Assembly (NCBI GenBank): GCA_902528415.1
Contig: CABZSR010000010.1
Coordinates: forward strand, 1-54,638
Direction: 5' to 3'
Length of the DNA stretch: 54,638 nt
From: an uncultured SAR116 cluster alpha proteobacterium
Lineage (GTDB): Bacteria > Pseudomonadota > Alphaproteobacteria > Puniceispirillales > Marisalimonadaceae
Positions 3-10,263 of this stretch are shown piece after piece. The stretch's first letter is position 1; each line of letters starts with the position of its first letter. Both the position numbers and the translations under genes were made by a program. The notes below the pieces were generated by a model. That model saw only the letters and a list, made by a program, of their open reading frames with translations, did no database searches and was not told where the DNA came from.

Positions 3-233
3 TTAGCAACGCACTTTGCATCTGATAATATTCAAATTAATACAATATCTCCTGGAGGGATAGAAAGAAAGCAATCAAAAGATTTTATAAAAAATTACAA
101 TATTAAAAATCCAACTGGAAGAATGGGTTCACCTAAAGATTTGCTGCCGGCCTTAGATTTTTTGTTAAACGAACAAAATGAATACACTAATGGTGAAAAT
201 ATTGTTGTAGATGGTGGTTTTACTAAATGGTAA
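3..233 (+). CDS. SDR-family oxidoreductase, C-terminal part only
   Basis: The reading frame is open from the window edge to a TAA at 231-233 (76 codons). It shows the C-terminal end of a short-chain dehydrogenase: the INTISPGGI stretch that follows the catalytic Tyr/Lys helix, a MGSPKD segment, and the family's closing VVDGGF motif. The catalytic YxxxK and the N-terminal cofactor site lie outside the window, so substrate and cofactor cannot be judged. Its stop overlaps the start of the next gene by seven bases, so it is translationally coupled to the nonulosonic-acid cassette and probably makes or modifies a sugar precursor (inference). Confidence 0.8.
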   Translation, partial: LATHFASDNIQINTISPGGIERKQSKDFIKNYNIKNPTGRMGSPKDLLPALDFLLNEQNEYTNGENIVVDGGFTKW

Positions 234-1402
234 ATAATGATAAGGAAATCGCAAGATTAAAAGAATGGAAAAATGTTGTAAAAACATATTCTTTGAAAAT
301 TTCAAAAATTTTAAAAAAGAACCAAACAGTGTTTTATTCCATTAGTTCGGTAAGCTCAGATAAGAAAATTAACCCATATACAACCCCTATAAGATTATCT
401 GGCAACAAGGTTATTGCAGGCTGCATTGTAGGTTCTCAAATTGAGGCTTTAATTGTTGCAAATTATGTTGAAAGTTCAATAGATTACTTATTGTTAGATG
501 TTGAAAAAAAAATACCAATTCAAAATATTCCTCATGAGGAAGTTTTTTTGGCTTTTAACTTAAAAAAGGCACTCTATATAGAAAACTCAAAAACAGCTTC
601 AGGCGTTGAATTTGGAAATATTTCATCAGCAGTAAGAAAAACTTTTCCCTCACAAAAAATTATTAGCTATAAACCAAATGACCTAACAATTGATTCGATA
701 TGGTTTTTCTTAAGCCATAAGTTTGGAAATTTTGCTAATTTAAAGATTGCGATTATTGGGTCCGGAAATATTGGCTTTAAGCTTGCTTTAAAACTTGTAG
801 AAAGTGGAGCGTATGTGAATCTTAATAGAAGGGATAAAGTTTTAGGATTACAATTAGCAAGTACAATTAATTCTATTAAACCCAAAAATACTTTAGCTAA
901 TGCAGAATATTATGAAGATCCAGTAAGAACTTGTACTTTATGTGACGTAGTTATAGGAACTGGCAAAACTGATATTCTAATTATCAATGAAAGAATGGTA
1001 TCTGTAATGGCAAAAGGTGGAACTCTTATCGACTGTGGTAAAGGTAATATCACTGAAGGTGCCATTAATTATGCCTATGAACTTGGCCTGAAAATTTTTA
1101 GAAGTGACGTTACATCAGGTATAATTTCTTTTGTTGATCAAGCTATAATGATTAAAAAAATAATTAATAATAAAACTGGCAGGAAATTATTAAAAGATGA
1201 TATGTACATAGTTTCTGGCGGAGTATATGGTAGGTATGGTGATGTAATTGTTGATGATTTTGATGCTCCAGAAACTATATATGGGATGGCGGATGGTAGA
1301 GGTCAATTAATAGAAAAATTAACTAATTTACAATTAAAAAAGATAAAAGATGTTTCAAATTATTTTAACATAAACCAACAATTTTCGAAAACTTATAAAT
1401 GA
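227..1402 (+). CDS. Unrecognised NAD(P)-binding Rossmann protein in glycan cassette
   Basis: I do not recognise this 391-residue protein as a named enzyme. It has a clear Rossmann nucleotide-binding loop, GSGNIG at about residues 178-183 after a hydrophobic beta strand, flanked by an N-terminal domain with no familiar motif and a C-terminal part rich in Gly (TLIDCGKGNI, YGRYGD). The layout of a substrate domain followed by a mid-protein GxGxxG fold recalls S-adenosylhomocysteine hydrolase or shikimate/methylene-THF dehydrogenases, but specific catalytic residues cannot be assigned. It overlaps the upstream SDR gene by seven bases and the downstream fusion gene by four (ATGA), so it is part of the same translational unit and probably acts on a sugar or amino-sugar intermediate (inference). 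Confidence 0.75.
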   Translation: MVNNDKEIARLKEWKNVVKTYSLKISKILKKNQTVFYSISSVSSDKKINPYTTPIRLSGNKVIAGCIVGSQIEALIVANYVESSIDYLLLDVEKKIPIQNIPHEEVFLAFNLKKALYIENSKTASGVEFGNISSAVRKTFPSQKIISYKPNDLTIDSIWFFLSHKFGNFANLKIAIIGSGNIGFKLALKLVESGAYVNLNRRDKVLGLQLASTINSIKPKNTLANAEYYEDPVRTCTLCDVVIGTGKTDILIINERMVSVMAKGGTLIDCGKGNITEGAINYAYELGLKIFRSDVTSGIISFVDQAIMIKKIINNKTGRKLLKDDMYIVSGGVYGRYGDVIVDDFDAPETIYGMADGRGQLIEKLTNLQLKKIKDVSNYFNINQQFSKTYK

Positions 1403-3795
1403 CCATTGATAAAAAAGGGAAAATTTTTGTAATTGGAGCTGGACCTACAGGGCTAGTTTCTGGATGGAAATTATCTGAAAATCAAAGAGAAGTTCATGTG
1501 TTCGAGGCATCAAATAGAGTTGGTGGTTTATGTGCAAGTTGGGAGTGGAATGATTTTGTTTTAGATATAGGTCCTCATATTTTTCACACACCAGACAAAA
1601 ACTTAGAAAATTTTTGGAAAGAAGAATTTGGTGACCTGTTAGAAGAAGGTGAATATTATTGTGGTAATATTAAAGGCGAAAAATTTGATCAATTTCATCC
1701 CTATCCAATTTCCTGGGAGCAAATTTCAAATTATCCTCAAGATTTGAGAGAAAAAATTGTTAAAGAAATTACATCAATTGATAACTTAAAAAAAGCAAAA
1801 GCATCAAATTATAGAGAATATATGGATGCTCAAGTTGGTCCAACTTTGAGAAGTATGTTTTACGAAAAATATCCTATGAAAATTTGGGGTATTAATCCAA
1901 ATGATATGACAGCAGATTGGGCTCCTAAAAGGATTCAATTTAGAGAAAAAATCTCCCCATTTTATGTGAATGAGTGGTCAGCAGTTTCAAAAAAGGGAAC
2001 TGGGGCTATTTATTCTAGAATTGCGGATAAAATTATTAAATTTGGAGGAAAAATAGAGTTTAATAAAAAGGTCACTAGCTTTAAAACTTCAGGAAAATTA
2101 ATTTCAGAAATAATTTTTTCAGATAATTCCAAACAATTAGTTGAACCCAATGACATAATAATTTCGTCTATTCCAATCACAATTTTGGCAAAATTTTTCA
2201 ACTATGAACCAAAACTGAGTTTTCGAGGAGTCAGGTTAGGTTATTTTTTAATTAATAAAGATAGATTGCTACCAAGGGGCAAAAATTGGTTGTATTTTGA
2301 TCACGAAAAAATCCTTTTTAATAGGATTACCGAACCTAAAACCATGAGTAGATCACTTGGTAAAAATAATAAATCAATAATAGTTACTGAGACTTGTTAT
2401 AGCAAAAATGATTATGTTGATAATTTAACTGATTTAGAGTTTACAAACAAAATAGTTACCGATCTACTAAAGACATTTTCACTTGGCACAAACGACATTC
2501 TTGACACTATTTCTCATAAAGAAGACTACGTGTATCCTGTCCAAACTACTGGATATCAAAAAGAATTAGCAAAAACAAGATCAATAATTGATAAATACGA
2601 TCAGTTATATTCACTCGGAACAGGTGGAGATTTTAATTATGCAGATAGTCAAATTTTATTTCATATGGCATTTGATATTTCGGATGAAATATTAAATAAT
2701 AATAAAATTAATTCTAAAACAATTAAACAAATAACCCCTGTTACACAAAATAGCATCGTTAAATTAGGTGATAAAAATGTAGGTCCAGGAAATGAATGTT
2801 ACATTATCGCAGAAGCAGGTATTAATCATAATGGCGATGTAAATGTAGCTAAAGAATTAATAGACCAGGCAGTTTTATCAGGATGTTCTGCTGTTAAGTT
2901 TCAATCTTTTACCAAAGATAGTAGGGTTTCTAAAACTCAAAAGTTTGCAAAATATGCTGAAGAAGCTGATGGCTTACAAGAAAATATTTATGATTTGTTT
3001 GAACGTTTGTCTTTGTCATTTGAAGATCAGAGAACTATATTTAATTATGCCTCCAAAAAAAATATTCCTGTTTTTTCAACGCCATTTGATTTTGACAGTG
3101 TGGATTTTCTTGAAAAATTAGGAGTCTTTGCATATAAAATAGCATCGATGGATTTAGTCAATCTCCCACTAATAGAATATGTAGCAAAAAAAATGAAACC
3201 TATTATTCTTTCTACAGGAATGAGTACTTTATCTAATATCGAGGATGCTACAAATGTTATATTAAATTGTGGCAACCCGAACATCATATTGTTGCACTGT
3301 AATTCGTCATATCCTGCACCAGAAGAAGAGATGAATTTATCTGCTATAGAGACTTTAAAGAATACTTTTAAAGTACCCGTTGGATTATCAGATCATACGT
3401 TTGGATTGTTTGTGTCTCATACTGCAATTGCAAGGGGAGCTAATATAATTGAACGACACTTCACTCTTGCTAGAACTATGGTAGGTCCAGATCATATTTT
3501 ATCATCTGAATTAGATGAAATGTCGCAGTTGGTGGAAATTGCTAAAAGAGTTCCAAAAATACTGGGTAATGGGATTAAAAAAGTTCAGCCTGCTGAATTG
3601 ACAACTCTAAATATGCAACAAAAATGCATTTATGCTTCTAGGAACATTACTAAAGGTGAAAAAATAAAACTTGCTGATATTACGGTAAAAGGTCCAGGTG
3701 GGGGTGTCCTTCCAAAATATATTGACATTATAATTGGCAGAAAAGTTAAAACGGATATTAAAAGAGACACTGCTATAAATTGGAATGATATCTAA
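1399..3795 (+). CDS. Fusion: FAD-dependent amine-oxidase-like oxidoreductase + NeuB-type nonulosonate synthase
   Basis: One 798-residue protein with two enzymes. Residues 1-430 are a flavoprotein of the protoporphyrinogen oxidase/UDP-galactopyranose mutase class: dinucleotide loop GAGPTG at 13-18, then FEASNRVGG and a C-terminal FAD-contact-like stretch SLGTGGDFNYAD near 405-416. After a polar linker rich in Asn, Lys and Thr (431-455), residues 460-798 are a complete NeuB: EAGINHNG at 472-479, KFQ at 500-502, STGMS at 605-609, HCNSSYP at 633-639, SDHTFG at 664-669, ERHFT around 685-689, and a C-terminal SAF (antifreeze-like) domain from about 740. NeuB enzymes condense phosphoenolpyruvate with an N-acetylated hexosamine to make sialic, legionaminic or pseudaminic acid. 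No in-frame Met lies near the junction (last is M423), so a single polypeptide is required unless there is a sequence error. Confidence 0.9.
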   Translation: MTIDKKGKIFVIGAGPTGLVSGWKLSENQREVHVFEASNRVGGLCASWEWNDFVLDIGPHIFHTPDKNLENFWKEEFGDLLEEGEYYCGNIKGEKFDQFHPYPISWEQISNYPQDLREKIVKEITSIDNLKKAKASNYREYMDAQVGPTLRSMFYEKYPMKIWGINPNDMTADWAPKRIQFREKISPFYVNEWSAVSKKGTGAIYSRIADKIIKFGGKIEFNKKVTSFKTSGKLISEIIFSDNSKQLVEPNDIIISSIPITILAKFFNYEPKLSFRGVRLGYFLINKDRLLPRGKNWLYFDHEKILFNRITEPKTMSRSLGKNNKSIIVTETCYSKNDYVDNLTDLEFTNKIVTDLLKTFSLGTNDILDTISHKEDYVYPVQTTGYQKELAKTRSIIDKYDQLYSLGTGGDFNYADSQILFHMAFDISDEILNNNKINSKTIKQITPVTQNSIVKLGDKNVGPGNECYIIAEAGINHNGDVNVAKELIDQAVLSGCSAVKFQSFTKDSRVSKTQKFAKYAEEADGLQENIYDLFERLSLSFEDQRTIFNYASKKNIPVFSTPFDFDSVDFLEKLGVFAYKIASMDLVNLPLIEYVAKKMKPIILSTGMSTLSNIEDATNVILNCGNPNIILLHCNSSYPAPEEEMNLSAIETLKNTFKVPVGLSDHTFGLFVSHTAIARGANIIERHFTLARTMVGPDHILSSELDEMSQLVEIAKRVPKILGNGIKKVQPAELTTLNMQQKCIYASRNITKGEKIKLADITVKGPGGGVLPKYIDIIIGRKVKTDIKRDTAINWNDI

Positions 3796-3810: not shown

Positions 3811-4479
3811 ATGAAGAACATATTAGCATTAATTCCTGCACGCTCTGGGAGTAAAGGTATACCTTTTAAAAATATATTGAAATTTAGAGGTAAACCTCTA
3901 TTAGCTCATAGTATAATTTATGCAAAAAAATCATCATTAATTCAAGATGTTGTTGTTTCTACAGACTCAGAGGAATTTGCTTCAATATCTAATGAATTTG
4001 GAGCGAGAGCTCCATTTCTTAGACCTTATGATTTGTCTGGAGACAAAGTTCAAGATTACCCTGTAGTTAAACATGCTGTTAATTTTTTAGAAAAAGAAAC
4101 TAAAAATAAAATTGATTATATTGCCCTTTTGAGACCGACATCACCTCTAAGGCCACCTAATTTAATAGAAAAAGCTTACCAGATTCTAAAAAATAATAAA
4201 TTAGGTACATCTGTAAGAAGCGTAGTGCCTGTAAATCAGCATAGTTATAGGCAATGGTTTGTCAATGGAGATAGAATGATTCCAGCACAAGAAAATATTT
4301 TTGAGCCATATAATCTACCAAGGCAACAGTTACCAAAGTCTTATTTTCAATCAGGTGATATTGAGTTTATAAAAAGAAGTACGCTTGATCAAAATACTGT
4401 GAGTGGTGATTACATATTACCTTTAATATTAGAAAACAAGGATTTATATGATATAGATACTTATGAGGATTTAAAATAA
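3811..4479 (+). CDS. neuA: CMP-nonulosonate (acylneuraminate) cytidylyltransferase
   Basis: A 222-residue NeuA-family protein that activates a nine-carbon acidic sugar with CTP. The N-terminal nucleotide loop is textbook (IPARSGSKGIPFKN, residues 8-21), followed by FRGKPLLAHSI, VVVSTDSEE and LLRPTSPLRPP, and it ends in a family-typical acidic region. Length matches single-domain NeuA/PseF/LegF proteins. It starts 15 bases after the NeuB fusion, so both are likely made from one transcript and act in sequence. The sugar it accepts (sialic, legionaminic or pseudaminic type) cannot be read from the sequence, hence the symbol is a family label. Confidence 0.88.
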   Translation: MKNILALIPARSGSKGIPFKNILKFRGKPLLAHSIIYAKKSSLIQDVVVSTDSEEFASISNEFGARAPFLRPYDLSGDKVQDYPVVKHAVNFLEKETKNKIDYIALLRPTSPLRPPNLIEKAYQILKNNKLGTSVRSVVPVNQHSYRQWFVNGDRMIPAQENIFEPYNLPRQQLPKSYFQSGDIEFIKRSTLDQNTVSGDYILPLILENKDLYDIDTYEDLK

Positions 4480-4484
4480 ACAAA

Positions 4485-4967
4485 TCAAATTGTATTGCTG
4501 TTCCTTATTTTATTTATTATCAAAGTTGAAGATTTGTTCTTAATGAGTGGTATAAAGTAAGTTTTAATTTTTAATAAATTTAGTGTATTTACGTATGAAA
4601 TATCGTTCATATTATAATCTTCTCCTTTTGTGTATATATCAGGATTAATTTCTCTGATAAGTTTATCAGGTGTTAATTCATTAAAAATTATACATAAATC
4701 TACAGATTTTAAGGATGAAATAATTTCAGCCCGGTCTTTTTCATCGATAATTGGTCGATCTAGTCCTTTGCTTAATTTTTTTGTAGATTTATTTGAATTG
4801 ATACCAACTATTAAACTGGCTCCAAGTTTTTTGGAGTTTTTTAGATAATTAACATGACCTGAATGTAAAATATCAAACACCCCATTAGTAAACACTATTG
4901 GTTTAGCCAATTTTTCAGTAATATTTACTACATCACTCTTATCTGAAAAAAAATGCCAATATTTCAA
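4485..4967 (-). CDS. hldC: D-glycero-beta-D-manno-heptose 1-phosphate adenylyltransferase, stand-alone
   Basis: This 160-residue cytidylyltransferase-fold protein corresponds to the C-terminal half of bifunctional HldE (RfaE2). The nucleotidyltransferase signature is VFTNGVFDILHSGHVNYL (about residues 26-43), followed by GINSN, an R-P-I..DRAEI segment and YTKGEDY. It would make ADP-D,D-heptose for LPS inner core. The start is a TTG at 4965-4967, because no in-frame ATG or GTG precedes the conserved domain; an AGGA lies about ten bases upstream. It follows hldD by five bases and ends six bases from the convergent neuA. Confidence 0.87.
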   Translation of the reverse strand: MKYWHFFSDKSDVVNITEKLAKPIVFTNGVFDILHSGHVNYLKNSKKLGASLIVGINSNKSTKKLSKGLDRPIIDEKDRAEIISSLKSVDLCIIFNELTPDKLIREINPDIYTKGEDYNMNDISYVNTLNLLKIKTYFIPLIKNKSSTLIINKIRNSNTI

Positions 4968-4972
4968 GTCAA

Positions 4973-5947
4973 TTATTCCTGATCATTTTTCAATTTTTTT
5001 ATATATTTAGCTATACCCTGTTGTACATTTAAAAATTTATTACAAAACCCAAATTTTTTTATTGAATCCATATTTGCCAAAGTATAATTTTGGTATCGTC
5101 CTATAAGTTCTTCTGGGAAATTAATATAATCAATAGTTTCATTAAAAATCTGGTCATCCACTGGAATGTGATTTCCTATTATCACTCGTGCAATTTCATT
5201 AAAAGATGCCGCCTTACCAGTACCTAAATTAAAAATACCTGAAACATTAATATTTTTATAGAACCATAATACAGTATTAACAACATCATCTACATAGATG
5301 AAATCCCTACATTGTGTACCTTTTTCAAAATTTAAATAATCTCCAAATAATTTTATTTTTTTATTTTTTTGGTACTGATTATAGAATTGAAAAATACAAG
5401 ATGACATTTTACCTTTATGTTCTTCTCCATGTCCATAAACATTAAAATATCTAAGTCCAACAACTTGACTAGTTAAATCATTTATTCTTTTTCTTACATA
5501 ATTATCAAACGCTAACTTTGAGTAACCGTATATATTAATAGGATTTTCATACAAATGATTTTCTGTGCAGGTTTCATTTAAACCGTACACTGCTGCTGAT
5601 GAAGCATATATAAATGGAATTTCTTTTTCAGTCGCCCAGTTAAAAAGTTTAATAGAAAATGTGTAGTTATGTTTAAACATTAACTTTCCATTTCTTTCCA
5701 TAGTATCAGTTATCGCTCCCTGATGAAATATGCAATGAGGTTTATCTAATGAATTAGTTTCAAGTTTTTTTAAAAAATCCTCAATATCTAGAAATTCTAA
5801 ATATTCAATTTTTTTAAGGTTAGAAAACTTTTCTCCATTTGTAAGATCGTCAATAATAACTATATCTTTAATCCCATTAATATTTAATTGTCTAGCCAAT
5901 GCGCTTCCTATAAAACCTGCACCACCAGTTATCCATACATTCATCAA
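4973..5947 (-). CDS. hldD: ADP-L-glycero-D-manno-heptose 6-epimerase
   Basis: A 324-residue extended SDR with the N-terminal loop TGGAGFIGSALA (about 8-19), an ASSAAVYG segment, and the catalytic YGYSKLAFD (Tyr-x-x-x-Lys), matching HldD (RfaD) in length and motif order. It interconverts ADP-D,D- and ADP-L,D-heptose, the last step before transfer into LPS core. Two adjacent ATG codons (5945-5947 and 5942-5944) overlap the TGA of the upstream kinase (5944-5946), an overlap typical of translational coupling. The heptose genes are ordered kinase, epimerase, adenylyltransferase. Confidence 0.93.
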   Translation of the reverse strand: MMNVWITGGAGFIGSALARQLNINGIKDIVIIDDLTNGEKFSNLKKIEYLEFLDIEDFLKKLETNSLDKPHCIFHQGAITDTMERNGKLMFKHNYTFSIKLFNWATEKEIPFIYASSAAVYGLNETCTENHLYENPINIYGYSKLAFDNYVRKRINDLTSQVVGLRYFNVYGHGEEHKGKMSSCIFQFYNQYQKNKKIKLFGDYLNFEKGTQCRDFIYVDDVVNTVLWFYKNINVSGIFNLGTGKAASFNEIARVIIGNHIPVDDQIFNETIDYINFPEELIGRYQNYTLANMDSIKKFGFCNKFLNVQQGIAKYIKKLKNDQE

Positions 5948-6873
5948 AAAATTTCCTCAAACATTATAGAAGATGTCCCAAATTTCTGTACTATAATTCC
6001 ACCTGCTCTATTAGCAACTTCACAAGCGCTTTTAAGAGAGCAATTAATAGACAACAGTACAGCTAATACACTAATTACAGTGTCGCCTGCGCCTGTTACA
6101 TCATAAACTTCAGAAGATCTTCCTTTTATATTAAATTGTAAATTTTCCTCTAGTTGAAATAAAGTCATACCGTCTTTACCTTTAGTTAGTACTATATTTT
6201 TTATTTCATTTTCTTCCATCATTTTAAAAATTTTTCTCTTAAAGTCCTTCTCATTGTTATAGGGACCTACAAGCATTTTTATCTCTTTATAGTTTGGAGT
6301 AATAATATCAGCTCCTTTAAATTTTCTGATATCAGAGCCTTTTGGGTCAATTAAACATATCTTGTTATTACCTTTTACTCTTTGAATTAAATCAGGTAAT
6401 TCGTCTAAAACACCTTTAGCATAATCACTAAAAATTATAACATCTGATTTCTTAAAACGTTTTAAAAAGTTATTAAACGTTTTTTTAGTAATTTTTGGAG
6501 GTATTTGTTCGTCATCCATTCTTAAAATTTGTTGATAGTTGCCAATTAACCTCGTTTTTTTTACAGTCTTATAAGAATTATTTTTTTCAATGAAACAAAT
6601 TATATTTTTCTCTTCTAATTTATTTAATAATTTTTGACCATCAAGGTCATTACCAATCACGCTAACTATTTCGACGTTGCAACCTAAGGTTTTACAATTA
6701 AGCGCTACATTTGCAGCGCCTCCAAGTCTTTCTTCAGTTTTGAAAATACTCAATATAGGAACAGGAGCTTCTGGAGAAATTTTTTCAACCTTACCAAATA
6801 GATACTGATCCAAAATTAGATCACCTATAACTAATATATTCTTTTGTTTTAATTTAGATTTACTGACTGTCAT
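5944..6873 (-). CDS. hldA: D-glycero-beta-D-manno-heptose-7-phosphate kinase, stand-alone
   Basis: A 309-residue PfkB-family kinase equal to the N-terminal half of HldE (RfaE1). It has the opening LVIGDLILDQYLFGKVEKISPEAP signature region (about 15-38), GGAANVALN, and the PfkB C-terminal motif DVTGAGDT near residues 257-265 carrying the catalytic Asp. It phosphorylates heptose-7-phosphate at C1. The protein ends without the usual fused nucleotidyltransferase domain, which is instead encoded separately at 4485-4967 with hldD between them. Sedoheptulose-7-phosphate isomerase (gmhA) and the bisphosphate phosphatase (gmhB) are not in the window. Confidence 0.9.
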   Translation of the reverse strand: MTVSKSKLKQKNILVIGDLILDQYLFGKVEKISPEAPVPILSIFKTEERLGGAANVALNCKTLGCNVEIVSVIGNDLDGQKLLNKLEEKNIICFIEKNNSYKTVKKTRLIGNYQQILRMDDEQIPPKITKKTFNNFLKRFKKSDVIIFSDYAKGVLDELPDLIQRVKGNNKICLIDPKGSDIRKFKGADIITPNYKEIKMLVGPYNNEKDFKRKIFKMMEENEIKNIVLTKGKDGMTLFQLEENLQFNIKGRSSEVYDVTGAGDTVISVLAVLLSINCSLKSACEVANRAGGIIVQKFGTSSIMFEEIF

Positions 6874-6877
6874 TTCT

Positions 6878-7186
6878 TTAACTCATTATACATCTATAAT
6901 AATAATTTTTATTTATTTTGACTAAACTTAAATAAAATATTGAATAAAATGAAAAAATTATCATAGAAAAGATAGATAATATTATTGATAGTCTCCCAAT
7001 TCTTTTATTATTATGAATTTTTTGAGAGCTTATAGTATGATCATTTGAATAATGATTGGGAATAATTTTTTCTTTAATAAAAATTAAAGTGAATATTATG
7101 CTTATAATAAATGAACCAAATCCGAAAGATAAAATCTCTAAATAATTAAACGAAAAGTTCAATCTAAGTTCTCTTATTTTTTGCAT
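6878..7186 (-). pseudogene. Short two-TM protein, probable truncated GT4 (WecA/MraY-like) phosphotransferase
   Basis: This 102-residue frame starts inside the last 23 bases of the murQ-like gene. It has two hydrophobic segments (about residues 17-38 and 64-88) joined by a polar loop containing SSQKIHNNKRIGRLSII. That loop, its position after a first membrane helix and the helix that follows match the N-terminus of polyisoprenyl-phosphate sugar-1-phosphate transferases (WecA/WbpL type, usually over 300 residues, with H-x-x-P-x-P-R-x-G-G). Here the PR-GG element is degraded to a KRIGR. None of the later catalytic loops follow. I read it as an eroded 5' remnant; alternatively it is an unrelated small membrane protein. 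Confidence 0.5.
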
Positions 7187-7922
7187 TCAATAACGAATTA
7201 ATTAATTTTTCTCTTAACACAAGTTTTTTGTTAGTAGGAACCATATTAGTCATCATCCCTTTTTTAACTTTACCTAACCTAGTCATTACGAGGGTTGATA
7301 TTAAGTTCAAACAAATTTTTTGAGCAGTACCCGCCTTAAGTCTAGTTGATCCAGCAACAATTTCTGACCCGGTGTCTAAAATAATTGGAATCTTTGAGTG
7401 TTTCTCAAGCTTACTGTTTTTGTTATTACTTACTCCAATAGTCAATGCTCCTATTTGATTAGCTAATTTTATTACTTCAATTGTAAAAGTTGTAGAACCA
7501 CTAGCAGCTAATCCTATAACAACGTCATTTGCTTTAATCTTATTTTTCACAATTTCAACAACGTTTTTATCTCTTAAATCTTCAGCACCCTCTATTGATT
7601 TTGTAAGAGCTTGTGTCCCTCCGGCAATAATAAATTTAACACGGTTAACAGGCCATCCAAAAGTAGGGTAAAGTTCAACTCCATCTTGAACTGCAATTCT
7701 AGCCGATGTACCGGCTCCAACGTATACAATCTTATTTTTTAAATTATTTGATAATAAACTTATTATCTCAGTTACAGACAATTCAATTGAATTTAATGCT
7801 CCTCTTACTGCTTTAAATGCTCTAAAATGATTTTCCAACATTATCACTAATGCTTTTTCATTATTTAATTTGTCAATATGATAGTCTTCGTCAGGAATGG
7901 TTTCGGTTGTTTCTTCTTGCAT
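7164..7922 (-). CDS. murQ: N-acetylmuramic acid 6-phosphate etherase-like SIS protein
   Basis: The 252-residue product follows MurQ closely: an N-terminal DEDYHIDKLN segment, the SIS phosphosugar-binding fold with YVGAGTSARIAVQDGVE, PTFGW, and SIEGAED. The two glutamates used by the MurQ family fall at residues 83 and in the EGAED segment (111/114). The family splits lactate off MurNAc-6-phosphate in cell-wall recycling. It ends at about residue 252, whereas family members are usually near 300, so the C-terminal helical (UBA-like) part is mostly missing. No anmK or other recycling gene is nearby; the neighbours are heptose and glycan genes. A role as a different phosphosugar SIS enzyme cannot be excluded. 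Confidence 0.8.
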   Translation of the reverse strand: MQEETTETIPDEDYHIDKLNNEKALVIMLENHFRAFKAVRGALNSIELSVTEIISLLSNNLKNKIVYVGAGTSARIAVQDGVELYPTFGWPVNRVKFIIAGGTQALTKSIEGAEDLRDKNVVEIVKNKIKANDVVIGLAASGSTTFTIEVIKLANQIGALTIGVSNNKNSKLEKHSKIPIILDTGSEIVAGSTRLKAGTAQKICLNLISTLVMTRLGKVKKGMMTNMVPTNKKLVLREKLINSLLNAKNKRT

Positions 7923-7948
7923 ATTTAATCCATTAAAAAGTTATTAGA

Positions 7949-8854
7949 TTATAATTTTCTATATATCAAAGACATCATATTCTCGAAAAATGGAGGGCTA
8001 ATAGTATTATCTATAATGTTATGTTTATTATACTCAACTCTTTTATTTATTAGATTTAAATCTTCATTAATATTTTCATATGGCGTTCCTATGTATGGAT
8101 ACTCAGACCAAATTAATTTTAAGTCAAAATCATTCGCTAATAAAGATAGATTTTTTGCTGAAAAATGCCATAGGTGTTCAACAGGATGAAATAAATTCCA
8201 ATCTTTTTTATATAAGTTAGCAGAAAATGACGCACCATTAGGGGTTGCACATATGTAAAATAAAGCTCCAGATTTCATCAAAGAACTAATTTTTTTTATT
8301 GTTTTTCTTGGATCAGGTACATGTTCTATAACTCCTCTCATAGTAATAACGTCAAAAGAAGAAACAGAAAAAGGACACTTTAACACATCACCTAAATATA
8401 GATTTTTAGAATTAACATTTAAATTTTCCTTGGCAAGCTCAATTGCGAATGGATCTAACTCAGTTCCAAATTTTTCAAAACTATTAGGAATTTCTTTTAA
8501 AAAATATCCACCGCTGCATCCAACATCTAAAATTTTGCCATTTTCTGAAAATTTTTTTAAAATTTCTACATCCATTTTATATTGAAACGATCTTTGTTTC
8601 ATTTTTTTGTCATTATTAAGTCTAGTTTCTCCTATATAATTACAATAAAACTCTCGAAGACCAGTCGGACTTAGTTGAGGGTTCATAAAAATAAAACCAC
8701 ATTTTTTACAGATATCTGCTTTAAATCCTTGAAACTCAACCCAATTCTGTATTTTGTTGCTATTACAGCACAAACATTTCGATAGCTCAACTGTGCCAAA
8801 CTCGTCATATAGCTTTGAGTAATCATTTCCTCGAAAAAAATATTTTGAATTCAT
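7949..8854 (-). CDS. Class I SAM-dependent methyltransferase with N-terminal zinc-ribbon
   Basis: A 301-residue protein with a CxxC...CxxC pair (Cys27/Cys30 and Cys49/Cys52) ahead of a methyltransferase domain. The SAM loop is ILDVGCSGGYFLKE at about 108-121, followed by an acidic strand end (GTELDPF) and MRGVIEHVPDP. The layout is that of glycan-cluster methyltransferases, some of which methylate deoxysugars or lipid-linked sugars. It lies 18 bases from the upstream surface-carbohydrate gene and about 27 from murQ, in the same reverse unit. The acceptor is unknown. Confidence 0.82.
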   Translation of the reverse strand: MNSKYFFRGNDYSKLYDEFGTVELSKCLCCNSNKIQNWVEFQGFKADICKKCGFIFMNPQLSPTGLREFYCNYIGETRLNNDKKMKQRSFQYKMDVEILKKFSENGKILDVGCSGGYFLKEIPNSFEKFGTELDPFAIELAKENLNVNSKNLYLGDVLKCPFSVSSFDVITMRGVIEHVPDPRKTIKKISSLMKSGALFYICATPNGASFSANLYKKDWNLFHPVEHLWHFSAKNLSLLANDFDLKLIWSEYPYIGTPYENINEDLNLINKRVEYNKHNIIDNTISPPFFENMMSLIYRKL

Positions 8855-8871
8855 AAAACTTCTCCAATTTT

Positions 8872-10263
8872 CTAACTGAAAACTTTTATAGTTTTTTGAC
8901 TAAACATCTTGGTAACTGACAATTCTTTACTTTCAACTTTACCGGCTTGCACGCTTTGTTCTTTTCGATTTAATTGGTTTAATTTATTTATAATTAAATT
9001 AACATCATTTAAATTAAAATTCTTTTCATTTCTTCTAAATTCAAATCTTTTACCTTGTATAATTTTTCTAATAGTATGAAAAAGGTTGAATCCCAAAATC
9101 TCACGACCAAATTGTTTGTAATTAACTTTGTAATTAGAGTGACTATATAAAGAGTCGTTTACATAATGTTTATTTATATTTAAATAATCAAAAACAACAT
9201 TACTTACCCTTAATGAAGATTTACCATCAGCACTCAACAACCTCGATTTAATAAGCTTTTTCCTGTCTATTTTCATCTTCGATGAAGGTTTTAGACGATT
9301 GTTGTTACTTATTTTTTTTATCAAAAAAATAAGCTCATCAAAACTCTTGGGATTATGATTAATTTCTCCTGGAGGGGCTTGTGCCTTTAAATGAGGTGTA
9401 TTTATCCACTCTAACGATATTGGTTCTTTCCCTAACATGACAGCCTCAATGGCTGTTTGACAATTTAAATGTATTAATGCTTCACAACTATTTAACCATT
9501 CGATGGCTGTTTTTGTTTGATTTATTTCAAAGTTAGGAAAACGCAAAAGCTTCTCATAAGGTGTTCTAGACTCAAAAGGATGGGGCCGTAGAACAAAATT
9601 AACGTTAGGGACCGTTTTGCAAATTCTTTCAATAATTGAAATAACTTTTTTATTTACTTCATATGAATCTTTAGCATATTTGTTTGCAAATTTTCTATCA
9701 TACCCCATATCAATCATCGCTTTAGATTCTTCAATATAATTTTTAGTAAACTTAGGGTTTCCAACAGGGAAAGTTGTGTTTATTAAAATAAATTTTTTTT
9801 CATAAAAATCTTTATGGAATATTTTGTTGTAAGGATGAATGCAAAAATCATATCTTGGGCAACCTGTTATTTTTAATACTCCATCATTAAAAATATTTTT
9901 TTTCCTGAAAGCGTTATATTGATCATGACCCCATAAACAATATAAATTAACAAGATTTTTTTCCATTATATTAAAAACAAATTGTGAAAATTTTTCAATA
10001 TCTCTTCCTGGAGAACCTTCAGTATCTAAAATACATATTTTTATATTTTCTTTTTTGTATCTTTGAAGTAATGGAATATTATTAGGTCTAAGGTAATTCG
10101 CAATAACAAGGTCAGGTTTAATTGCAATTATATCAAATGCTTGACAGTACATTGGAACTATATAAGCGTTAACATTTTGTTTTGCCAAATGCCAAGCTAT
10201 TAGTGTTATACCCTCTAAATCTCTCAGAGGGTTGTCAACGATCAAACAAACTTTATACTTCAT
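8872..10263 (-). CDS. Surface carbohydrate biosynthesis protein (GT-B/CDP-glycerophosphotransferase-like)
   Basis: The 463-residue protein resembles the 'surface carbohydrate biosynthesis' family seen in O-antigen and nonulosonate clusters. It opens with VCLIVDNPLRDLEG, has an early ILDTEGSPG region, an LRPHPFE motif near residue 224 typical of the CDP-glycerol glycerophosphotransferase-like/GT-B fold, and an SCEALIHLNCQTAIEAVMLGKEP donor-site-like stretch. There is no signal peptide or membrane segment. I infer a cytoplasmic sugar or polyol-phosphate transferase; donor and acceptor are unknown. The last 90 residues are Lys/Asn-rich and may be a poorly conserved tail. Confidence 0.7.
   Translation of the reverse strand: MKYKVCLIVDNPLRDLEGITLIAWHLAKQNVNAYIVPMYCQAFDIIAIKPDLVIANYLRPNNIPLLQRYKKENIKICILDTEGSPGRDIEKFSQFVFNIMEKNLVNLYCLWGHDQYNAFRKKNIFNDGVLKITGCPRYDFCIHPYNKIFHKDFYEKKFILINTTFPVGNPKFTKNYIEESKAMIDMGYDRKFANKYAKDSYEVNKKVISIIERICKTVPNVNFVLRPHPFESRTPYEKLLRFPNFEINQTKTAIEWLNSCEALIHLNCQTAIEAVMLGKEPISLEWINTPHLKAQAPPGEINHNPKSFDELIFLIKKISNNNRLKPSSKMKIDRKKLIKSRLLSADGKSSLRVSNVVFDYLNINKHYVNDSLYSHSNYKVNYKQFGREILGFNLFHTIRKIIQGKRFEFRRNEKNFNLNDVNLIINKLNQLNRKEQSVQAGKVESKELSVTKMFSQKTIKVFS

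Follow-up and report, generated by a model that had tools for sequence, protein, structure and literature searches.

The stretch of DNA analyzed here (“the window”: 54,638 nucleotides from an uncultured SAR116 cluster alphaproteobacterium, contig CABZSR010000010.1 of assembly GCA_902528415.1, i.e., contig 10 of a 1.72 Mb assembly that is 73% complete) encodes a single protein in which a flavin domain of the UDP-galactopyranose mutase (UGM) type is followed by a complete NeuB-type sialic acid synthase with its SAF domain. This conserved union of domains, each from a known superfamily, is real, and no description of a NeuB fused to a flavoprotein was found in the literature searched, which lay mostly outside the subscription journals. 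The domain assignments are well supported; as to the reaction and the substrate, we infer, with slightly more confidence than doubt and judging from sequences and a structural model, that the protein would be bifunctional and belong to a nonulosonate route not described in that literature, with flavin chemistry that would rearrange or open a nucleotide sugar for NeuB.

The gene (1399-3795, + strand) is a single open frame of 798 codons that begins with an ATG and has zero internal stops in the open reading frame (ORF) listing. Pfam models match its product at residues 11-75 (NAD_binding_8), 17-273 (Amino_oxidase), 154-337 (GLF, i.e., UGM), 487-727 (NeuB) and 743-798 (SAF), and the NCBIfam model TIGR03569 aligns along its full length to residues 467-793. 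The initial annotation of the window, made from the sequence alone, had claimed just such a protein, a flavoprotein joined to a complete NeuB with SAF and lacking a usable start codon near the junction, and it was right on both points: the domains occupy residues 1-433 and 458-798, and the only in-frame ATG, GTG or TTG in codons 401-480 is the ATG at codon 423 (none in 424-480), which belongs to the conserved terminal part of the flavin domain and leaves no evident start for a separate NeuB. The structure prediction that it had proposed as a check agrees, as the AlphaFold model (mean pLDDT 88.8, pTM 0.81) shows two confident domains, with low confidence at residues 436-439 of the linker.

The joined frame recurs in related genomes, where the same annotation had proposed to look for it: among the window’s own genome and 60 relatives (61 searched), the fusion is present in four, at identities of 100, 92, 81 and 34%, the other three also belonging to the window’s order. 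The search for further proteins with both domains was just as affirmative, as a scan of 84,980 genomes (which detects a relative solely by either of two short peptide patterns and may therefore miss unlike members) gave 34 loci, nine of them weak (one from Pseudoduganella, eight from Massilia) and 25 strong (E 8e-60 or better), and all 25 strong ones, three of which are the relatives already mentioned, are fused to NeuB, 24 in a single frame and one (L062) in a broken one. Altogether, 29 distinct fusion sequences are available with the window included, one being frame-broken (L062) and another (L056) truncated at a contig edge with its start missing. In L062 (SCGC AAA288-G21), the frames 5354-5827 and 5856-7748 are separated by a break within the flavin part, the second piece continuing into NeuB; the break may reflect either sequencing error or decay. 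Could the joining of two genes be an assembly or frame artefact, the danger to which the initial annotation had itself pointed? Nothing in the window speaks for it, a broken frame being seen in the relative L062, and the independent fusions refute it (28 others, of which 27 are unbroken, one of these being truncated at a contig edge; they come from many assemblies and several phyla), so this explanation can practically be dismissed.

The hosts are SAR116, Pelagibacteraceae, Prochlorococcus, a Synechococcaceae genome, the alphaproteobacterium SCGC AAA288-G21, one Elusimicrobia metagenome-assembled genome (MAG) and one Nitrososphaerales MAG, the last being an unsure host, as its fusion sits on a 9.7-kb contig. 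Within these groups the fusion is rare, being found in 9 of 347 genomes from the order of Pelagibacter G444, 5 of 251 from the family of Prochlorococcus G455, 1 of 139 from the phylum of G442 and 1 of 141 from the order of G441, counts that include the centre genomes and others first found via the fusion; a single-sequence search of 385 genomes of the class found it solely in the window’s own genome. Profile scores set the fusions apart, as unbroken ones reach at least 317 bits with the A2 model vs. at most 157 for unfused proteins, and those with a whole flavin domain reach 409-712 bits with the A6 model (the NeuB-bearing piece of L062 reaches 394) vs. 235 for the best unfused protein, A6 being built on most of the fusions and the comparison covering frames not cut by stretch ends. 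In the flavin tree, the fused domains (31 rows, 28 genomes) form one clade (support 99/97, 100% of bootstraps), and the NeuB tree places the fused NeuB domains together on the same side of a branch, though with weak support (81/32; 83% of bootstraps, the bootstrap not having settled), so that it is chiefly the flavin tree that speaks for a single fusion event.

Two pattern scans of viral contigs, followed by flavin-domain alignments, confirmed no relative there, and 29 phage and 67 plasmid records match the flavin domain (at 22-25% identity among the best ten listed of each), the matched features being mostly annotated as UGM, FAD-dependent oxidoreductase or hypothetical protein. Stand-alone relatives of the flavin domain were considered as hidden partners of a separate NeuB and rejected as such: of 30 scoring at least 95 bits, a single one (L007 of genome G006, 99 bits) has a NeuB in its stretch, convergent with the flavin gene, these stretches being mostly 2.9-4.4 kb long, and longer ones (5-13.5 kb), available for 11 of the 30, being likewise without NeuB. 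In genome G006 (L040), a stand-alone NeuB (6549-7724, +) overlaps by four bases a convergent, distant flavin adenine dinucleotide (FAD) protein (7721-9058, -) in which GPHIF is retained, and the pair may be an unfused counterpart of the fusion.

As for the kind of flavoprotein, a profile search against the PDB has UGM 4dsg as its best match (E 1.7e-28) and bacterial UGMs next, with L-amino acid oxidases only at E 1e-8, and a fold search with the AlphaFold model also puts UGM first among flavoproteins (3ukk, E 3e-25, target TM 0.68; 4dsg, target TM 0.75; Campylobacter UDP-GalNAc mutase, target TM 0.83), the flavin-domain matches of ranks 1-40 all being UGM, amine oxidase being absent among the best 50 listed, and coproporphyrinogen/protoporphyrinogen oxidases and phytoene desaturase ranking behind. 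The roles given for the Klebsiella pneumoniae (Kp) UGM in Table 3 of PMC3624792 are diphosphate binding for R174, R280, Y314 and Y185, sugar binding for Y349 and N84, uracil stacking for Y155, flavin for H60 and contact with the FAD pyrophosphate for R343, W160 being tabulated as well. In an alignment of 27 fusions (L041 and L062 lying outside it) and 17 stand-alone relatives, the equivalents of R174, R280, Y314, Y349, N84, W160, Y155 and H60 are retained in all 27 fusions, i.e., three of the four diphosphate contacts are kept throughout, and so are those of H63 and D351, to which no Kp role is ascribed here. N84 (1/17), D351 (2/17) and H63 (4/17) are common to the fusions and UGM and scarce in the stand-alone relatives, the N84 match being one position off in the HMMER output and its register our own reading. 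Flavin domains with as little as 28% identity to the window’s still have E36, the GG pair and the active-site residues of UGM type without exception, and GxG is present in all 23 rows reaching that position.

These residues and the predicted fold give good support to regarding the flavin domain as being of the UGM type rather than an amine oxidase, and would favor isomerizing or ring-opening chemistry over oxidation. The “amine-oxidase-class” label of the initial annotation therefore stands as a Pfam superfamily name (the broad Amino_oxidase model, PF01593, scores 54.9 bits on the window protein, above its cut-off of 19.8, and matches 25/25 fusions, GLF matching 15/25) but not by residues and fold, and of the two activities that it had suggested, oxidizing or isomerizing, the former is the less favored.

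For the C-terminal half, membership in the NeuB-type sialic acid synthase superfamily is well supported, as the equivalents of E25, K53, Q55, K129, Y186, H215, H236 and D247 (numbering transferred from an alignment) are present in 29/29 fusions, and Pfam finds NeuB in 25/25 and SAF in 21/25 (at E 0.001). The window protein, nevertheless, scores below the cut-offs of both TIGR03569 (NeuB_NnaB; 366 vs. 399.65 bits) and TIGR03586 (PseI; 308.8 vs. 340.25 bits). According to PMC6795526, the Neisseria Neu5Ac synthase is active as R314K and inactive as R314A, and the Arg may position the N-acetyl group. At this position, located by the R314A entry 4ipi aligning there, the 29 fusions have G (21, the window included), A (4), S (3) or P (1) and never R or K, vs. 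R 23, K 9, S 2, G 1 and I 1 in 39 NeuBs without a flavin domain (mostly from the window’s order; three are without SAF). R or K is thus found in 32 of the 36 alignable ones, or in 26/30 when six doubtfully aligned rows are dropped, as six of the nine K come from divergent NeuB-cytidylyltransferase proteins. Loss of R314, together with the scores under both cut-offs, suggests that the substrate of the fused NeuB probably lacks a 2-N-acetyl group and is not an N-acetylhexosamine; the “hexosamine” precursor of the initial annotation is, hence, probably wrong.

The fusion also has a steady partner, here labelled ROSS (Table 1), the TGA stop of which overlaps the fusion’s ATG by four bases (ATGA). 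ROSS adjoins the fusion in 23 of the 25 strong loci (upstream in 13, downstream in 10; the exceptions being L056, at a contig edge, and L047) and is also found at three further fusions (L118-L120). At E 1e-15 it is detected in 8 of the 347 genomes of the G444 draw and in 5 of the 251 of the G455 draw, and all 13 (of 598 genomes) are fusion carriers, G444 (= L047) being the sole fusion genome of the two draws without it; these draws include genomes found via the fusion and so are not an unbiased sample. Its product combines a clear NAD(P)-type Rossmann half with an N-terminal half bearing near-invariant DxEKK and KxND motifs, in a domain order that may resemble that of shikimate dehydrogenase; its model is confident (pLDDT 89.0), with weak fold matches (TM about 0.3-0.4, dipicolinate synthase A on top), and a ROSS pattern scan of viral contigs gave two weak matches, confined to the Rossmann part. 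In 22 of the 28 fusion loci (L041-L065, L118-L120), the stretch retrieved also holds a homologue of the cytidine monophosphate (CMP)-transferase gene that follows the fusion in the window, and, with every close relative found being fused to NeuB, it is very probable that the flavoenzyme acts in the same nonulosonate pathway, as initially proposed.

In the route that we favor, the UGM-type domain would bind a nucleotide-activated sugar and rearrange it without net redox change: as in UGM, for which PMC3624792 describes attack by flavin N5, an iminium ion and ring opening, N5 would attack the sugar C1 and the ring would open. NeuB-SAF would then condense the resulting aldose, likely not a 2-acetamido sugar, with phosphoenolpyruvate, ROSS, being of NAD(P)-binding type and observed to be linked, would act in the same steps, and the CMP-transferase encoded nearby in most loci would activate the product for a surface glycan.

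Several observations weigh against this route. TIGR00031 (UGM) gives the window protein 44.4 bits, with a cut-off of 303.75; the fourth diphosphate contact, Y185, is Phe in 27/27 fusions (as in 11/17 stand-alone relatives), and the R343 position holds T (16), A (9), C (1) or S (1) in these 27 and Arg in 15/17 stand-alone relatives, so the flavin domain is not a canonical UGM. R174, R280, Y314 and Y349 are also found in 14, 17, 14 and 15 of the 17 stand-alone relatives, respectively, which means that these residues mark the superfamily and do not prove a mutase reaction. No CMP-transferase was found by the seeds used in six of 28 loci, of which L056 is short and L055 and L064 are near contig ends, L053 (with a weaker match at 9e-7), L063 and L119 not being so placed. 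Finally, 4 of the 36 alignable flavin-free NeuBs also lack R314, a loss that the fusions thus share with other NeuBs.

The missing FAD-phosphate contact would also suit a redox enzyme, in which a hydroxyl on the substrate or the product of NeuB is oxidized by the flavin domain and reduced again by ROSS, to yield a keto, epimerized or deoxygenated nonulosonate. Amino_oxidase matching more of the fusions than GLF does, the oxidases and the desaturase as the next nearest folds, and the linkage to ROSS, which could complete an oxidise-reduce pair, all point the same way; as UGM, however, tops the profile and fold searches alike, and the three diphosphate contacts, N84, Y349, W160 and D351 are universal among the aligned fusions, this seems possible but unlikely. 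The loss of the FAD-pyrophosphate Arg from every aligned fusion might even be taken to mean that the flavin domain is catalytically lost and merely supports or regulates NeuB, yet the invariance of E36, GG and the active-site residues over such distances, with GxG in all rows reaching it, is unlike a dead domain, and makes this very improbable.

UGM-type residues and nearby CMP-transferase genes could, in turn, be read as action after NeuB, i.e., a pyranose/furanose interconversion of the (CMP-)nonulosonate, with the fusion holding the product. The retained Arg pair and Tyr, however, bind a diphosphate in UGM and CMP-nonulosonates carry a monophosphate, and a quaternary carbon beside a carboxylate would, chemically, be a poor target for flavin N5, leaving this order of events improbable.

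A narrower version of the route that we favor, suggested by sequence and analogy, would have the flavin domain free the acyclic aldehyde of an NDP-neutral (possibly 6-deoxy) hexose straight into NeuB: the nucleotide would be displaced by N5, the ring opened and the open-chain iminium hydrolyzed instead of re-closed, which would give NeuB the aldehyde form that it needs. It would then replace the hydrolyzing epimerase NeuC or the hydrolase PseG and lead to a nonulosonate without the usual 5-N-acyl group. In agreement with this, PseG is above its cut-off in none of the 26 fusion genomes searched (of 29) and Epimerase_2 (the NeuC family) in 7/26, vs. 2 and 11, respectively, of 14 control genomes, R314 is lost, and homologues of RfbA and RfbB stand beside the fusion in 3/25 loci of three lineages (L053, L059, L064), an adjacency that weighs little because such genes are common in glycan clusters. 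On the other side, many of the fusion genomes are partial, which makes these absences weak; Epimerase_2 lies on the fusion contig in G442 and G450 (2 and 10 kb away); and weaker PseG matches occur in 18/26, two of them full length (E about 1e-22) and one of these, in G447, 5 kb from the fusion, which lowers the odds slightly and leaves the hydrolytic version rather doubtful.

Table 1. Features at the start of the window (residues are those of the fusion protein).
Feature	Position	Strand	Evidence or landmarks
Short-chain dehydrogenase/reductase (SDR) gene, 3′ end	3..233	+	Frame 3 translation matches the SDR preceding ROSS in G032; 7-base overlap with ROSS
ROSS (author’s label), 391 aa, two-domain Rossmann-type oxidoreductase-like	227..1402	+	ORF, family alignment, model, fold search, co-occurrence
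Flavin domain, UGM type	1399..2697 (residues 1-433)	+	Pfam/NCBIfam, profile alignment to UGM, fold search, residue table
Flavin-domain landmarks			GAGPTG 13-18, GPHIFHT 58-64, R178, R309, Y379, Y414, D416
Linker	2698..2769 (residues 434-457)	+	No in-frame ATG/GTG/TTG
NeuB catalytic barrel	2770..3603 (residues 458-735)	+	E472, K500, Q502, K580, Y638, H666, H687, D698 retained
SAF (antifreeze-like) domain	3625..3792 (residues 743-798)	+	G765 at the Neisseria R314 position
CMP-nonulosonate cytidylyltransferase-like gene (NeuA/PseF-like)	3811..4479	+	PF02348; 15 bases past the fusion stop

The product of the last gene of Table 1 scores 146.8 bits with TIGR03584 (PseF), under its cut-off of 205.7. 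In G032 and G014, further genes of the cluster lie upstream, namely, SDRs, an aldo-keto reductase and a second CMP-transferase, as well as a NeuB that lacks SAF and, as read by eye, gmhA and rfbABC; the NeuB, SDR and CMP-transferase assignments are supported by additional comparisons. Part of this upstream cluster sits on contig 39 of the window’s assembly. The SAF-less NeuB (L033:3651-4481, L034:3613-4548 and L037:2021-2851; 276 aa in L033 and L037, the latter being that contig 39) is followed by what reads by eye as a sugar isomerase/epimerase gene.

Across the fusion loci, four kinds of company are seen (one or a few members of each kind were identified by Pfam/NCBIfam, the others by similarity to those): a HemL-type aminotransferase, usually with SpsF and an SDR (L047, L048, L051, L052, L055, L058, L062 and L120; L055 is without SpsF and L058 without SDR); a NeuB-cytidylyltransferase fusion of about 580 aa with a radical SAM/SPASM protein (L044, L046, L049, L050, L061 and L065); an aldo-keto reductase with NeuA (L041-L043, L057 and L118); and a DegT aminotransferase with NeuA (L059 and L060). 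The pattern suggests a constant core around which the tailoring genes vary. The SAR116 cluster also encodes a 454-aa protein (L041:4731-6095, with homologues in L042 and L043) that has a sub-threshold Epimerase_2 match (E 4.5e-4) and may be either a glycosyltransferase or a NeuC-like enzyme that has diverged, and the PseG-like protein of G447 (L050:2356-3378, -) is diverged and full length, scores 79 bits, below the cut-off, and is encoded next to a separate NeuB and a DegT aminotransferase homologue. Further along the window, separate ADP-heptose genes (adenylyltransferase, epimerase and kinase; 4485-6873, -) are directly convergent with the nonulosonate genes, and a MurNAc-6-phosphate etherase-like SIS protein (7164-7922, -), above the NF003915 cut-off, is encoded among surface-sugar genes.

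Acidic nine-carbon sugars coat many microbes, and prediction of the routes to them relies on a small number of known gene sets, outside of which the conserved two-gene module of fusion and ROSS in ocean plankton lineages seems to fall. The module links UGM-type flavin chemistry to sialic-acid-type synthesis and leads to a testable prediction, namely, that a new sugar is present on the surface of some SAR11, SAR116 and picocyanobacteria, organisms whose surface glycans are under phage pressure.

Among known systems, other fusions likewise join NeuB to enzyme domains (NeuB-cytidylyltransferase; NeuB-SAF-TIM barrel, once with CBS), those scanned being without the flavin domain. In the latter kind, a C-terminal xylose-isomerase-like TIM barrel follows NeuB-SAF (L021:1141-3402 of G051 and L015:850-2511 of G001, one with CBS in front), with Ser in place of R314 in both proteins. 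A parallel with EpaA/EpaB, the makers of 8-epi-pseudaminate, was considered and ruled out by their different make-up, a cytidylyltransferase-like N-terminus plus an SDR, as given in PMC12053666. With NeuB/NnaB and PseI (TIGR03569, TIGR03586), the fusion shares the whole barrel, the SAF domain and the eight catalytic-site residues checked, and differs in having lost R314 and in its N-terminal flavin domain, the window protein also falling under both curated cut-offs. The PRK07208-type FAD proteins (NF005547 and sister models, named “hypothetical protein”) provide the best NCBIfam models along the whole flavin domain (163.1 bits) and are matched by 25/25 fusions, the window protein differing in being under the cut-off (380) and fused to NeuB. 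With UGM/Glf itself (PF03275, TIGR00031), the flavin domain has in common the fold, the GPHIFHT loop, the two diphosphate Arg, the Tyr pair, Asn, Trp and the active-site His, and it is set apart by the NeuB that it carries, by the changed equivalents of R343 and Y185 and by a score far under the UGM model cut-off.

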